A stretch of 64,000 bases of DNA from Exiguobacterium sp. FSL W8-0210. Lineage in GTDB: Bacteria > Bacillota > Bacilli > Exiguobacteriales > Exiguobacteriaceae. Below are positions 43,533-49,640 of this stretch, one piece after another. A program made the translations under genes and the position numbers. Location: positions 1,529,001 through 1,593,000 of the forward strand of contig NZ_JBBOUK010000001.1 of assembly GCF_038006045.1 (NCBI RefSeq). The letters run 5' to 3'. Each line of letters opens with the position of its first letter. Position 1 is the stretch's first letter. The notes below the pieces were generated by a model. It searched no databases. It had not been told where the DNA came from and worked only from the letters and a program-made list of their open reading frames with translations.

Positions 43533-43579
43533 GAGTCGACCAATGACCCATCAGACGTCTTCTCGATGCAACTGAGAGC
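43533..43579. repeat. 47-bp repeat, copy 1
   Basis: It begins GAGTCGACCAATGACCC and ends TCGATGCAACTGAGAGC. It is conserved at both ends with copy 2 at 43695, while the central 10-12 bp differ. It lies in the spacer between yneT and the xerS-like gene. Confidence 0.7.
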
Positions 43580-43694: not shown

Positions 43695-43741
43695 GAGTTG
43701 ACCAACGACCCGTCTATCACCTTGTCGATGCAACTGAGCGC
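43695..43741. repeat. 47-bp repeat, copy 2
   Basis: It begins GAGTTGACCAACGACCC and ends TCGATGCAACTGAGCGC. Same spacing as copy 1, 162 bp away, same orientation. GCATCGA just before it pairs with TCGATGC inside it. Confidence 0.7.
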
Positions 43742-43844: not shown

Positions 43845-44885
43845 ATGAGTTTATTTAAAAACCTAGGAAAAACAATACATAAATCGACCGTTTCGGCTAC
43901 AGCACCAGCGATTCCCGGTTATGAGCGGATGCCACGCTTCATTCAGTCCTATTTAGATCAGTTAGCAGCCAAACATTTCTCATTAGCAACGATGCGTCGG
44001 TACGTCTATGACTATGAAGCGTTCTTCCAATTCGTCGCTGCGGCGTCAGGTGAAGAGGTAACAGCGCGAGATATTCCACTTGAAGCATTTGTCGAGATCG
44101 ATGCAGCAGGAATCGAAGCCTACGCCGAATACCTTGCCTTAACGAAACAAAATGCACCGAGCGTCATCAACCGGAAGTTATCAGCGTTACAGTCACTGTT
44201 TCGTTATTTGGTCGATACCGGTCAGTTGTCGGAAAACCCGGTCGCCAAAGTCAATCGACCGAAACAAACCAAACGGGAACCGGTTTATCTGACAAAACGC
44301 GAATGGGACGAATTGATTCAATTATTACCATCGAACGTCGAAATGAACGCGCGCGAAGCATCGCATTATGAACGGGATCGTGTCCGCGACGTGACGTTAT
44401 TCCAATTACTTGGCTATAGCGGGATGCGTTTAAGTGAGATGACGCAACTCGTCTGGAACGATGTCGATTTCCACGAAAATACGCTCCGCGTCATCGGGAA
44501 AGGCAATAAAGAACGATTGATTCCACTTGCGAAACCAGCACGAATTGCCTTACGCAAATACGCGATCCATTATCAGATGCCAACGAGCGGCGCCGTACCT
44601 GTCTTCCAAAAACACGGGAAACCACTCAGCCCACGGGCAGTCCAGCATATTTTGCAGCGGCACACGGAACGGCTGAAGCCAGTCCTCCCCTTTTTAGAGC
44701 GCAAAAAAATTACGCCACATAAACTACGGCATACGTTTGCGACACGACTTGCGACCGGCGGGGTCGACGTCCTGACGATCCAGCAGTTACTCGGTCACGA
44801 ATCCGTCGCAACAACGCAGGTCTATGCCCATATCGGTGATTCGGAGAAAAAACGCGCCGTCGATTTATTTGATGGTGAACGATAA
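43845..44885 (+). CDS. xerS: XerS-like tyrosine recombinase
   Basis: 346-residue tyrosine recombinase. An N-terminal SAM-like core-binding domain (about 30-125: FIQSYLDQLAAKHFSLATMRRYVYDYEAFFQFV) is followed by the catalytic domain, with R195 (GYSGMRLSEM), H292 and R295 (TPHKLRHTFATRL), H318 (LLGHES) and nucleophile Y327 (VYAHI) all present. Length and N-terminus fit single-recombinase XerS more than XerC/D. No phage or island genes are adjacent, so chromosome-dimer resolution is likely. AGGGGTG precedes the ATG. Confidence 0.82.
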   Translation: MSLFKNLGKTIHKSTVSATAPAIPGYERMPRFIQSYLDQLAAKHFSLATMRRYVYDYEAFFQFVAAASGEEVTARDIPLEAFVEIDAAGIEAYAEYLALTKQNAPSVINRKLSALQSLFRYLVDTGQLSENPVAKVNRPKQTKREPVYLTKREWDELIQLLPSNVEMNAREASHYERDRVRDVTLFQLLGYSGMRLSEMTQLVWNDVDFHENTLRVIGKGNKERLIPLAKPARIALRKYAIHYQMPTSGAVPVFQKHGKPLSPRAVQHILQRHTERLKPVLPFLERKKITPHKLRHTFATRLATGGVDVLTIQQLLGHESVATTQVYAHIGDSEKKRAVDLFDGER

Positions 44886-44915: not shown

Positions 44916-47525
44916 ATGAATTACGGGCTCAGTGAACGTAAAATCAAACAGATGTCTGATGCCTATGCCTTTCGACGGGGAAAGAAGTATGTCGCTGCCC
45001 GAAAGGTCACGTTACACAATTACCGGATGGGTGACGAGCTAATTGAAGCGAGCGTAGACGGTGAGGAACGATTCACGGTGACGGTCCGCGTCAAGGCGCA
45101 CGGCGTCGACGCTGGCTGTAACTGTCCGTCGCTTGCGATGGATACGTCATTTTGTGGACACATCGTCGCTGTTTTGCTGGCGATGCATTATGTGCAGGCA
45201 CACGGCACACCAACACCGCTCTCGCCGCAAATCCGCCCTTTTACGGCAATTCAAGTCGACGACGCAGGCGCGCGCAACTATTTACGCAGTCTCACACCTG
45301 ATCGTCGGGTGGCGATTCATTTCGAACTGACTGGACCCGTCGTGACGCTCAAACGATTGACGGATAAACAGCAGCATCAACTGTCCCTGCCCTACTTCGA
45401 TCGTTTGCTTGGACAGACAGAGTATTTGCAGCGGGTTGCGGATGTTTCGTTCAGTCCTGATTTACAGGAACGAATTGTTTCCGGTACGCCGATCGTTAAG
45501 CTCCATCTCGATCGAACGGCTCTGAAAGTTGAAGTCCGCGTGTCGTTTGATTATCAAGGGATTCAGCTGAATCCACTCGACGAGACGATTTATGCTGGAC
45601 GGGATCAAGTAACGGAGCAAAGTGTCTTACGCTATTTACGTGAATTCCAAGCAACACCATCGAATTCGCACTATGTCATCACCAGTGACGCCGCGCAGTA
45701 TGCTTTTTTGCGGAGTCTGCTTGACGAACGGGTTGCGCTCGGTCAACTGGTGTTATTTGCAACGCAAGCCATCCGAACGACGTTACCAAAAGGACCATTT
45801 CATCCGCGGATCGAAGTCGACGTGACAGACCGCCTCGACTGGCTTGTGTTCAACTTTTCGATGGACGGAATTCCGGAAGACGAACTGAAACTTGTCCTGA
45901 AGTCGCTCATCTTACAAAAACGCTATCACCGCTTGAAATCCGGACAGTTCGTATCTTTAGAGGCACGGGCCTTTCAGCAGTTGCAACGGGTTCTCGCCCA
46001 GATGGAAGCGAGTGAACGCGACTTACGCGACGGACGACTCGTCTTACCTGCCGTCCGGAACATGAAGCATCTGATTGGCGCTTCCATCCTCCATCTTCAC
46101 GCTGATTTGCTCGAGAAATGGTTCGAATTGAAATCCGGACAAGGATTCCGGCTCGACTTGCCGAATTCGTTAGAGTCACAACTCTATCCGTATCAACGGA
46201 CGGGCATTCAATTTCTGAAGAATTTGGACGCGCACGGATGTCACGGCATCTTGGCCGATGAGATGGGGCTTGGAAAGACGATTCAAGCGATTGGTTATAT
46301 AGCAACGATTTCGGATAGTCGTGCACTGATCGTCGCACCAGCATCACTGCTCCGCAACTGGGAGGCGGAACTGAAGCGCTTTTTACCCGGTCGACCGGTT
46401 CATGTCGTGACGGGTTCTCAAACTAGCCGACTTTCCGAACTGGAGTACTTGGCTGAAAACACAGTGACGATCGTCTCCTATACGACTCTTCGGACCGACG
46501 TCCGTCGCCACCCTGTATATGACGTCGTTTTCTTTGATGAAGCACAGCACTTGAAGAATCCGCAGTCACAAACGGTCAGTCAACTGCGACATCTGCAAGC
46601 AAAACGCCGGTTCGCCTTGACGGGAACTCCACTTGAGAATCGACCGCGCGATATCTGGTCGATTTTCCATGTCTTGTTTCCGGAATTACTGCCGGATTTA
46701 GCGACGTTTGAGAAATGGTCGTTTGATGACATGCAACAATTCATTCAACCATTTTTATTACGGCGTGAGAAAAAAGATGTCTTACAGGACTTACCAAAGA
46801 AGCAGATCGAGCATCATTATGTCGAGCTCGGACCGAATCAAAAACGGTTATATGCGTCGTATCTCGCCAAATTGCAACTCGAGACGTTGCAGCATTTAGA
46901 CGAAACGAAACGTGAAGATCGTTTGAAGTTACTGGCGGGCTTAACGCGGTTGCGGCAAATTTGCAACGATCCGGGATTATTCGTCGAGGGGTACACAGGG
47001 GAAGCAACGAAACGAACGCGTCTGCTCTCACTGATTGCAGAAAAACGAGCAGCCGGAAAACGGATCTTGATCTTCTCACAGTATACGCAAATGCTCGAGC
47101 GCATTCGTTCGGATCTCGCGCAACGTCACCTCCCCCACTTCCTATTGACGGGTGAGACACCGCTCGAAGACCGGGTCGCGTTATGCGACCGGTTCAATGA
47201 CGGTGAAGTCGATCTCTTCTTGATTTCGCTTAAAGCTGGCGGAACGGGACTCAACCTCGCCTCCGCTGATACCGTCATCCTCTTTGACAGCTGGTGGAAT
47301 CCGGCCGTCGAACAACAGGCAGCCGATCGCGCCCATCGGCTTGGACAACAGTCTGACGTGACCGTCATCAAATTGCTGACACGCGGAACGATCGAAGAGA
47401 AGATGACGGAATTACAAGATCGAAAAGCCAAAATGGTCGATGCCGTCCTGACGGCTCCAGACAGTGACGCTTTGACCGTCAAGGAACTCGTTCATCTCGT
47501 AACGACAAAGGAGGAACAACGGTGA
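44916..47525 (+). CDS. SWIM zinc-finger SNF2-family ATPase
   Basis: 869 residues. The N-terminal SWIM finger has C68, C70, C80 and H82 (CxC...CxH), which bind nucleic acid or protein. The C-terminal half is a Snf2 motor: ADEMGLGKTIQAIG (Walker A), FDEAQHLKN (DEAH-like), LTGTPLENRPRDIWSIF, then helicase C with GGTGLNLASADTVILFDSWWNP and QQAADRAHRLGQ. Bacterial members of this type are DNA translocases of poorly known role, some linked to RNA polymerase recycling or defence. It overlaps the next gene by 4 nt. Confidence 0.9.
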   Translation: MNYGLSERKIKQMSDAYAFRRGKKYVAARKVTLHNYRMGDELIEASVDGEERFTVTVRVKAHGVDAGCNCPSLAMDTSFCGHIVAVLLAMHYVQAHGTPTPLSPQIRPFTAIQVDDAGARNYLRSLTPDRRVAIHFELTGPVVTLKRLTDKQQHQLSLPYFDRLLGQTEYLQRVADVSFSPDLQERIVSGTPIVKLHLDRTALKVEVRVSFDYQGIQLNPLDETIYAGRDQVTEQSVLRYLREFQATPSNSHYVITSDAAQYAFLRSLLDERVALGQLVLFATQAIRTTLPKGPFHPRIEVDVTDRLDWLVFNFSMDGIPEDELKLVLKSLILQKRYHRLKSGQFVSLEARAFQQLQRVLAQMEASERDLRDGRLVLPAVRNMKHLIGASILHLHADLLEKWFELKSGQGFRLDLPNSLESQLYPYQRTGIQFLKNLDAHGCHGILADEMGLGKTIQAIGYIATISDSRALIVAPASLLRNWEAELKRFLPGRPVHVVTGSQTSRLSELEYLAENTVTIVSYTTLRTDVRRHPVYDVVFFDEAQHLKNPQSQTVSQLRHLQAKRRFALTGTPLENRPRDIWSIFHVLFPELLPDLATFEKWSFDDMQQFIQPFLLRREKKDVLQDLPKKQIEHHYVELGPNQKRLYASYLAKLQLETLQHLDETKREDRLKLLAGLTRLRQICNDPGLFVEGYTGEATKRTRLLSLIAEKRAAGKRILIFSQYTQMLERIRSDLAQRHLPHFLLTGETPLEDRVALCDRFNDGEVDLFLISLKAGGTGLNLASADTVILFDSWWNPAVEQQAADRAHRLGQQSDVTVIKLLTRGTIEEKMTELQDRKAKMVDAVLTAPDSDALTVKELVHLVTTKEEQR

Positions 47526-48052
47526 TCCTGGATCTCCTGCTTGGTTATCTCATCGGTAGTATTTTAGGTGGTACGCTCTTTAAGTACATTAGTCGTACCG
47601 ATTTGGCACAGGTCGGTTCCGGAAACATCGGTGCCCGCAATGCCCATCGTGCCGGTGGGCTTCCGGCTTTTTTATTCGTTTATCTGTTTGATGCCGCGAA
47701 GACAGTCTTTGCGTTGCAGATCACTGACACGTTTTATCCGGTCGCCCTCGCCGTGCTCATCGGTCACTTGTTTCCGTTGTTTCACCCACGACGCGGCGGT
47801 AAAGGGTACGCTGTATTTTCCGGAATCGTCTTCGCTATCACGCCATGGGCATATCTTGCCGGATTAGGCATGCTCGGTTTGTCTTATCTCGTAACGAAAG
47901 ATAGTGTCAAAGCGGGGCTTATTCCGGTCGTTTTACTTCCGTTACTACCCGTCTTCTTAGACGCAGGGTCAGTCAATATCTTGTGTACCGTTGCCGTAAG
48001 TCTACTTGTCCTGTGGGCTCATGATGCACTCCACAAGCCAGCCATTACATAA
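47522..48052 (+). CDS. plsY: PlsY-type acyl-phosphate:glycerol-3-phosphate acyltransferase
   Basis: 176-residue integral membrane enzyme of the PlsY family, which transfers acyl groups from acyl phosphate to glycerol-3-phosphate, the first step in phospholipid synthesis. Motifs GSGNIGARNAHRAGG (near 37-51) and GHLFPLFHPRRGGKGYA are present, with about five transmembrane helices. The GTG start at 47522 overlaps the SNF2 stop. PlsY is often encoded near parE in Bacilli; here it is tied into an operon with an ATPase and a GNAT-aminotransferase, so it may be a second, specialised copy. Confidence 0.83.
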   Translation: MILDLLLGYLIGSILGGTLFKYISRTDLAQVGSGNIGARNAHRAGGLPAFLFVYLFDAAKTVFALQITDTFYPVALAVLIGHLFPLFHPRRGGKGYAVFSGIVFAITPWAYLAGLGMLGLSYLVTKDSVKAGLIPVVLLPLLPVFLDAGSVNILCTVAVSLLVLWAHDALHKPAIT

Positions 48053-48065
48053 GGAGGACGTCTCC

Positions 48066-49616
48066 ATGATCGACTTTTCCATTGCAACTGCGGACGACGC
48101 GGAAGCAATCCATGAATTGAACTACCTCACCTTCACAGAAGAGATTCCACAACATCAACCGAACACCGAACGCAAACGGATTGACCGGTTTCATGATCAA
48201 AATACTTATCTGATCGGCAAGGAAGACGATCGACTCGTCGCGATGATCGCCATTCGAAAGCATCGTCCCTTTTCGCTTGAGGAAAAGGGCGTGACGCTAG
48301 ACGAGACACTGACGGATCCAGCAGAAATCCGCTTACTTAGCGTTCGTCCCGAATACCGCAATAGTCGTACGTTCATGCAATTGATGCGCTTTTTAATGGT
48401 CTACCTCGAGCGGGAGACGATTGATCATGTCTATATCAGTGGTACGACGCGAGAAGCAAAACTATACGCGCGGTTCGGCTTCACACCGATTGCACCAACG
48501 CTTGGCAGTGGCGATGCTCAGTTTGTACCGATGTTGTTGTCGCGCGCAACATATGAACGATCCGTCATCGCGGATGTCTTACGTCCCCTGCATTTTCTAG
48601 CCGGTCCGGTCGAGGTTGCGCCGACGGTCCGTCAAGCGGCGCAACAAGCACCGCGTCCACACCGTACGGCCTCGATGCGGCAGCTCGATCAAGATTTACG
48701 TGGCCGAATGTGTCAGTTGCTGGATTTGCCACATGTCTCGATGGCCGTCGGCAGCGGTACGCTCGTCAATGATATTGTCGCGCAACAACTCACTGGACAT
48801 GGATTGATCCTGAACGGCGGCGAGTTCGGTCAACGCTTGATTGATCACGCGGCACGTGCCGGCAAGTCCTTTGATGTCCATACGCTTCCCCCCGGTCACC
48901 CGATCGACTTGAAGCAACTCGCTCATCAATTGAGGCAAACGGCATACAACTGGATCTGGTTGACGCATTGTGAGACGTCAACGGGTGTTCTCTATGATCT
49001 TGATGCAGTAAAAGTGCTGTTAGATGAACGAACCGCACTCGTCGTCGATGCGATCAGCGCTGTTGGAACCGGACATTTCTCATACGATGGCTGCACTTTC
49101 GTCACGACTGTTTCCGGGAAAGCGATTGGTGGTTTACCGGGTCTTGCGTTCATTGGTCACGCAGATCGCGTCCTACCTTCTCTCTGTATTCCCCGTTATC
49201 TGGATTTAGGACTCTACGCAGAAGGGGTTGCCTTTTCCGGCTCGTCGAACCTGTTGCTTGCCTGTCAGGCAGCGCTTGATGCCCTCGATCTTAATCAAGC
49301 AGCAATCAAGATGACCTATCTCGAACAAGCCGTCCGCGCAACTGGATTACAACTCCTCGCACAACAAGAAGCACAAGCGCCGGGAATACTGACGATCGTT
49401 CATCCGTCCGCAACTGATTTAGGCGACGCTCTGCGTATTCAGGGGTATCACGTCCAGTACGAAAGCGACTATCTTGTTTACAATCAGTGGCTTCAAATTT
49501 CGACGATGGGACAGACGACGATGCGACAAATTGAACGTCTCGTTCGTGTTTTAGTTCGTGAAAATGAACGAATCACCATAAAGAATGAAAAAAATGAAAG
49601 ACCTCTCAACCCTTGA
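48066..49616 (+). CDS. GNAT-class V aminotransferase fusion protein
   Basis: 516 residues in two domains. Residues 1-165 are a GNAT-type acyltransferase (IRLLSVRPEYRNSRTFMQLMRFLMVYLE, LYARFGFTPI), similar in layout to N-acyl amino acid or autoinducer synthase-like GNATs. Residues 200-500 are a PLP-dependent class V aminotransferase like PhnW or serine-glyoxylate aminotransferase: VGSGT (228-232), HCETSTG (301-307), VDAISAVG with D328, and Schiff-base K352 in VSGKAIGG. AAGGAGGA precedes the ATG at 48066, 13 nt after plsY. Its reaction is unknown; neighbours suggest an acylated amino compound. Confidence 0.85.
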   Translation: MIDFSIATADDAEAIHELNYLTFTEEIPQHQPNTERKRIDRFHDQNTYLIGKEDDRLVAMIAIRKHRPFSLEEKGVTLDETLTDPAEIRLLSVRPEYRNSRTFMQLMRFLMVYLERETIDHVYISGTTREAKLYARFGFTPIAPTLGSGDAQFVPMLLSRATYERSVIADVLRPLHFLAGPVEVAPTVRQAAQQAPRPHRTASMRQLDQDLRGRMCQLLDLPHVSMAVGSGTLVNDIVAQQLTGHGLILNGGEFGQRLIDHAARAGKSFDVHTLPPGHPIDLKQLAHQLRQTAYNWIWLTHCETSTGVLYDLDAVKVLLDERTALVVDAISAVGTGHFSYDGCTFVTTVSGKAIGGLPGLAFIGHADRVLPSLCIPRYLDLGLYAEGVAFSGSSNLLLACQAALDALDLNQAAIKMTYLEQAVRATGLQLLAQQEAQAPGILTIVHPSATDLGDALRIQGYHVQYESDYLVYNQWLQISTMGQTTMRQIERLVRVLVRENERITIKNEKNERPLNP

Positions 49617-49640
49617 TTTCAAGCGGTTTGGAGGTCTTTC
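49596..49640 (+). terminator. Terminator of the SNF2-plsY-fusion operon
   Basis: GAAAGACCTC (49596-49605) pairs with GAGGTCTTTC (49631-49640) with partial inner pairing. It overlaps the 3' end of the fusion gene. Confidence 0.75.

Follow-up and report, generated by a model that had tools for sequence, protein, structure and literature searches.

We describe a gene run from Exiguobacterium sp. FSL W8-0210 in which a gene for a divergent PlsY-like acyltransferase, here called PlsY2, precedes a gene encoding a fusion of a GNAT N-acyltransferase with a class V aminotransferase-fold domain that uses pyridoxal 5′-phosphate (PLP). The window, that is, the whole 64-kb stretch of DNA analysed, corresponds to C1:1529001-1593000 of the host genome (G000). 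The features of interest, in window coordinates, are as follows.

43845-44885, + strand: Xer-like tyrosine recombinase gene, the first gene of the run that ends in the fusion gene
44916-47525, + strand: SWIM-SNF2 ATPase gene, 869 amino acids, with SNF2-rel_dom, Helicase_C and SNF2_assoc domains
47522-48052, + strand: PlsY-like acyltransferase gene (PlsY2), GTG start, 176 amino acids, the second PlsY-family copy of the genome
48066-49616, + strand: GNAT-aminotransferase fusion gene, with a GNAT N-acyltransferase at residues 1-165 and a class V PLP fold at residues ~170-510
49596-49640, + strand: hairpin ending the gene run (-27.3 kcal/mol, z -5.6), a probable terminator with a weak T-run

An earlier sequence-only reading of this DNA had described the SNF2, PlsY2 and fusion genes as a head-to-tail operon in which the first two overlap by 4 nt and 13 nt separate the last two. 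The open reading frames bear out this arrangement, and the domains were assigned with Pfam and NCBIfam. The SNF2 and PlsY2 genes share the four nucleotides GTGA, and the fusion gene likely starts at the ATG at 48066, 13 nt past the PlsY2 stop codon and preceded by an AAGGAGG-like ribosome-binding site. The hairpin overlaps the 3′ end of the fusion gene. On the other side of the locus, the Xer-like gene, which the earlier reading had overlooked, ends 30 nt before the SNF2 gene on the same strand.

The functional unit is the PlsY2-fusion pair, not the trio. PlsY2 and the fusion gene are present in exactly the same 10 of 19 Exiguobacterium genomes, while the SNF2 gene occurs in all 19 genomes searched, including the nine in which the pair is absent or decayed. 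Adjacency of the three genes is kept in 10 species, nine of which retain the SNF2/PlsY2 overlap. In G006, which has the most divergent copies, a hairpin followed by a T-run (-24.6 kcal/mol, z -4.9) separates SNF2 from PlsY2. In G009, stop-riddled fragments of the PlsY2 and fusion genes lie behind SNF2, and in pair-less species an L25 gene follows SNF2 within ~260 bp (L056). As read from these two genomes, the pair in G006 and its relics in G009 favour an ancestral pair that was probably later lost within the genus.

The pair reaches well beyond Exiguobacterium. When the fusion was searched as an alignment, 13 of the 19 genomes of the sister genus proved to hold relatives; a named collection added relatives from Indiicoccus, Phycisphaerae, another planctomycete and Dadabacteria. 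PlsY2 adjoins the fusion gene in the sister genus, in Indiicoccus and at three Phycisphaerae loci from metagenome-assembled genomes, as well as in several other Bacilli families and on one Cytobacillus plasmid; it was not found beside the fusion gene in L076, L078 or L079. Among 20 regions read outside the family of the window, PlsY2 lay directly upstream of the fusion gene in 13 and none showed SNF2, and at no locus read outside the genus was SNF2 near the pair. The adjacency of all three families extends past this one strain, to the ten species above, but the trio is confined to the genus and the pair alone is spread far more widely; such conservation exceeds what chance would give.

These observations bear on the proposal that SNF2, PlsY2 and the fusion act as one module, possibly a defence-like one. 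The overlap retained in nine of ten trio-bearing species speaks for it; the presence of SNF2 in genus members with no intact pair, the hairpin that parts the genes in G006 and the pairs outside the genus that lack SNF2 speak against it. A search of a defence library returned matches only to the generic SNF2 ATPase domain and no partner genes of a known anti-phage system. With no defence partner among the remaining genes, we rejected the defence module, and a defence role for the locus is unlikely. SNF2 was likewise rejected as a pathway member, since it is present throughout the genus yet not beside the pair elsewhere; it is a genus-wide core gene and probably a bystander of the lipid pair. 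The single module is mostly refuted, and we regard it as very improbable.

Co-occurrence across Bacilli also links the two genes of the pair, with the limit that phylogeny was not corrected for in either the co-occurrence or the distance statistics. Of 398 Bacilli genomes from 145 genera, 49 carry the fusion gene, and they represent 15 of the genera; 23 of these 49 belong to the window's own family, which is over-represented in the sample, leaving 26 of 360 outside it. All 49 carry at least two PF02660 genes. Within the family, presence of the fusion gene and of a second PF02660 copy agrees in 38 of 38 genomes (23 with both, 15 with neither). Outside the family, at least two copies are found in 26/26 genomes with the fusion gene and in 79/334 without it (Fisher 1e-15, ignoring phylogeny; the 79 were counted by hand). 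The pattern S-G-N-x-G-A-R-N-A typical of PlsY2 (GARN) marks 34 of the 49 fusion-bearing genomes and 14 of the 349 others, with no matches for a reversed control. One of these 14, G361, does have the pair, at a contig break, and another, G090, showed no PlsY on reading. Among 12 fusion-positive genomes, most of them without an adjacent PlsY, a GARN-type copy was present elsewhere in 11; G139 has a degenerate copy only. Pairwise distances of PlsY2 and of the fusion correlate with r 0.96 over 19 loci (0 of 5000 permutations), a value to which shared species history contributes.

PlsY2 matches PF02660 (G3P_acyltransf) at 4e-30 (105 bits, cut-off 24.1), and the PlsY structure 5xj5 at 9e-14. It falls below the NCBIfam equivalog cut-off for PlsY (TIGR00023, 87.5 against 137.2 bits). 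In a search of the whole genome, a canonical PlsY at C1:1194528 matched PF02660 more strongly than the window copy (1.9e-54 and 8.9e-30), so the latter is a second, divergent copy; the possibility raised at the outset that this might be the sole plsY of the genome thus falls away. The gene for PlsX, which makes acyl-phosphate, lies at C1:1950191. The PlsY2 motif GSGNIGARN places an arginine where Aquifex PlsY has Thr41, a residue that holds the carbonyl of acyl-phosphate through its backbone and its hydroxyl and whose change to Ala leaves 5% activity; Arg occupies this position in 3.0% of 7,288 PlsY homologues (PMC5700162). Among PlsY copies linked to the fusion gene, this replacement is found in 21 of 22. 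The linked copies retain S35, N37, H92, K104 and H177 in 22/22 and R45 in 19/22; the position aligned with Ser142 holds Gly, Met, Ala or Leu, and that of Asn180 is variable, so that the canonical combination of Thr41 in the acyl-phosphate site and Asn180 in the glycerol-3-phosphate (G3P) site is not kept. From these residues it is plausible that PlsY2 uses acyl-phosphate and a phosphate-bearing acceptor, in an acceptor pocket that differs from that of canonical PlsY. A third type of PlsY paralogue (KNAGASN or KNSGASN; L167, L178, L180) was seen in several Bacilli, beside genes for a PLP-dependent cystathionine-synthase-like protein and a peptidase.

The same residues allow another account, in which PlsY2 acylates G3P as a redundant or condition-specific enzyme and the fusion performs an unrelated or regulatory acetylation or transamination. 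What ties the two together would then be co-regulation, in the homeostasis of the envelope or of phospholipids, and not a common substrate. With S35, H92, K104, H177 and mostly R45 retained, PlsY2 could still bind G3P. The loss of Thr41, the altered Ser142 and often Asn180, and the tight co-inheritance across phyla count against this account, which we consider rather unlikely.

Library searches with the fusion returned GNAT matches and a PhnW/AepZ-type class V aminotransferase, the latter under the NCBIfam PhnW-AepZ equivalog cut-off (TIGR03301, 99.6 against 360.8 bits). A structure model of the whole protein had a mean predicted local distance difference test score (pLDDT) of 86. Its PLP domain (~165-509) matched 2dr1 (Z 41.7), 1m32 (39.2) and 6pd1 (38.9), all of AGXT/PhnW type. 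The Schiff-base lysine K352 and the pyridine-nitrogen aspartate D328 are invariant in 36 of 36 fusion sequences, and in all 36 Gln477 replaces the arginine with which relatives bind the carboxylate of the substrate (xRIGxMG). A separate model of the GNAT domain (pLDDT 84) gave a structural match list led by FeeM (Z 17.6, 2.8 Å, 161 residues) and LasI (17.2), followed by RpaI and BjaI; alignments to FeeM and the acyl-homoserine-lactone synthases (Z 17.6 to 16.9) cover 161-168 of the 171 residues of the domain. The Pfam FeeM family (PF21926) matches 10 of 11 fusion members, the window protein at 27.3 bits being right at the cut-off of 27. Residues E87, R89 and R98 are invariant among the 36 sequences. 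The usual R-x-x-G-x-G/A acetyl-CoA loop is found in none of them, most having RxxRxF instead, and this non-canonical loop is a further point against a fusion that merely acetylates beside a redundant PlsY2. Separately, the fusion gene is split or carries single in-frame stops in L085 (G034), L094/L095 (G019) and G251:C4:34497-35993, which suggests recent decay in several species.

Neighbouring genes at other loci point towards lipids. The Phycisphaerae locus L080 reads, in order, cytidylate kinase-like, PlsC, PlsY2, fusion and IspH-like, all but PlsC and PlsY being named by eye. An acyl-[acyl carrier protein]-phospholipid O-acyltransferase gene (Aas) precedes the pair in L077, and a lipoteichoic acid (LTA) synthase gene (LtaS) lies directly downstream of the fusion gene in five loci, three of which have PlsY2 in front. 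Public annotation gives the run PlsY2-fusion-LTA synthase on a 690-kb Cytobacillus spongiae plasmid (L198; NZ_CP089998.1 195655-213157). PlsC, Aas and LtaS would also suit general phospholipid or teichoic acid metabolism, as co-regulation with a redundant PlsY2 would predict. In some other genomes the fusion gene instead stands behind a glycine-oxidase-like gene, and in several a gene for an XRE-type regulator, read from the sequence, and a glycine-oxidase-like gene adjoin it.

This last context, together with the LuxI/FeeM-type fold and a patchy spread that includes repeated losses and one copy on a plasmid, would suit an accessory metabolite: the pair might make an N-acyl amine metabolite or signal in place of a membrane lipid, with PlsY2 feeding or modifying the product. 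We think this unlikely, as the membrane O-acyltransferase and the LtaS or PlsC neighbours indicate a lipid and neither an exporter nor a receptor is consistently linked. A phosphonate (2-aminoethylphosphonate, AEP) pathway was considered and rejected, since no phosphoenolpyruvate mutase scored over the cut-off in 17 fusion-bearing genomes; three had matches below it.

We return to a lipid product of the pair, a role that is fairly well supported. Co-inheritance, adjacency and lipid neighbour genes are most simply accounted for by a common lipid product, and with moderate confidence we favour a two-enzyme pathway in which PlsY2 and the fusion would build an uncommon lipid acylated on both nitrogen and oxygen, with SNF2 and the Xer-like protein uninvolved. 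A small amine without an alpha-carboxylate would be formed or converted by the PLP domain. Its nitrogen would receive a fatty acyl chain from acyl-acyl carrier protein (acyl-ACP) through the FeeM/LuxI-like GNAT domain, and the membrane enzyme PlsY2 would use the acyl-phosphate that PlsX supplies to acylate a hydroxyl of the same molecule, its acceptor probably bearing a phosphate. The overall logic would resemble ornithine-lipid synthesis by OlsB and OlsA, with a PlsY paralogue as the O-acyltransferase. The pairing and its spread, the domains, the invariant residues and the genome's canonical plsY and plsX are observed directly, and we infer the acyl-ACP donor, the order of the steps, the identity of the amine substrate and the membrane-lipid nature of the product. 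The pathway to an acylated amino metabolite or lipid that the sequence-only reading suggested for all three genes is supported for the PlsY-type enzyme and the GNAT-aminotransferase and not for SNF2.

Several points weigh against this pathway. About a dozen genomes have a GARN-type PlsY but no fusion, some genomes carry the fusion without an adjacent PlsY, and the pair is frequently lost or broken and therefore not essential. The Gln at the position of the carboxylate Arg speaks against ordinary transamination with an amino acid as donor. Asn180, which belongs to the phosphate clamp for G3P, varies, so the acceptor of PlsY2 could lack a phosphate. For the GNAT domain, a sequence profile against the PDB gave nothing significant and no clear solved relative, and ordinary GNATs (16.9) come within 1 Z unit of the FeeM-like structural matches, a closeness that also suits an ordinary acetyltransferase beside a redundant PlsY2.

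A bolder form of the favoured pathway would define a new class of membrane lipid in Bacilli and Planctomycetota. A phosphate-bearing amino-alcohol made or handled by the PLP domain, for example serinol phosphate (aminated dihydroxyacetone phosphate), would receive one acyl chain on nitrogen through the GNAT domain and another on oxygen, from acyl-phosphate, through PlsY2 to give an amide analogue of phosphatidic acid; we hold this specific product to be doubtful. The open papers searched contained no description of a PlsY and GNAT/class V aminotransferase pair, or of an N-acyltransferase-class V fusion in lipids, and the pair has so far been annotated only as 'glycerol-3-phosphate acyltransferase' and 'aminotransferase class V-fold enzyme', as in L198. 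If the two-enzyme pathway is correct, it would run through 15 sampled Bacilli genera and extend to Planctomycetota, PlsY paralogues would gain a role beyond phosphatidic acid, lipid synthesis would gain a PLP-acyltransferase fusion, and an undescribed lipid would be suggested in organisms that sometimes encode LTA synthase in the same gene run. The pathway is directly testable within Exiguobacterium, where some close relatives have the pair and others lack it.

At the upstream end of the locus, the SNF2 protein has an N-terminal SWIM-type CxC...CxH motif (CNCPSLAMDTSFCGH), recognised by eye; no SWIM model matched. The Xer-like gene adjoins SNF2 in all genus genomes whose locus was read and may form a real pair with it on that side; next to PlsY2 and the fusion gene, we take the two for neighbours without a common function. 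The gap upstream of the Xer-like gene contains two imperfect copies (79%) of a 47-nt direct repeat that has inverted arms, at 43533-43579 and 43695-43741 of the window, possibly a recombination or regulatory site.

Among known systems, the closest in logic is OlsB/OlsA, along with GlsB/GlsA and GluB (reviewed in PMC11631085). Like the pair, OlsB/OlsA sets a GNAT-superfamily N-acyltransferase gene beside a gene for a membrane-lipid O-acyltransferase. Unlike the PlsC-like enzyme there, the O-acyltransferase here is a PlsY paralogue from a family of acyl-phosphate users; a further difference is the class V PLP domain to which the N-acyltransferase is fused. As the partner belongs to PF02660 and not to the PlsC family (PF01553), which is found nearby only in L080, we do not claim membership of the OlsB/OlsA group. 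PlsY2 shares with PlsY (5xj5 and relatives) its sequence family, H92, K104, H177 and most of the phosphate clamp, and differs by T41R, a changed S142 and a degraded N180 and C-terminal motif. The structural match list of the GNAT domain is headed, by less than 1 Z unit over ordinary GNATs, by the N-acyl amino acid synthase FeeM and LuxI-type synthases, and its invariant E87 might correspond to the catalytic Glu of FeeM; identity is ~15%, however, and the fusion has an LNYxTFxEEIPQH motif and a PLP domain that these enzymes lack. The Mycoplasma penetrans methionyl-tRNA synthetase (9os7) was rejected as an example of the same GNAT-aminotransferase architecture, its N-terminal domain being nucleotidyltransferase-like (PMC13215547). 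With AGXT/PhnW class V aminotransferases the fusion shares the fold, the Schiff-base lysine and the aspartate, but has an invariant Gln where those enzymes have the substrate-carboxylate Arg. PntC-AEP transaminase (6pd1) is another two-domain fusion with such an aminotransferase, whose partner is a nucleotidyltransferase there and a GNAT domain here.

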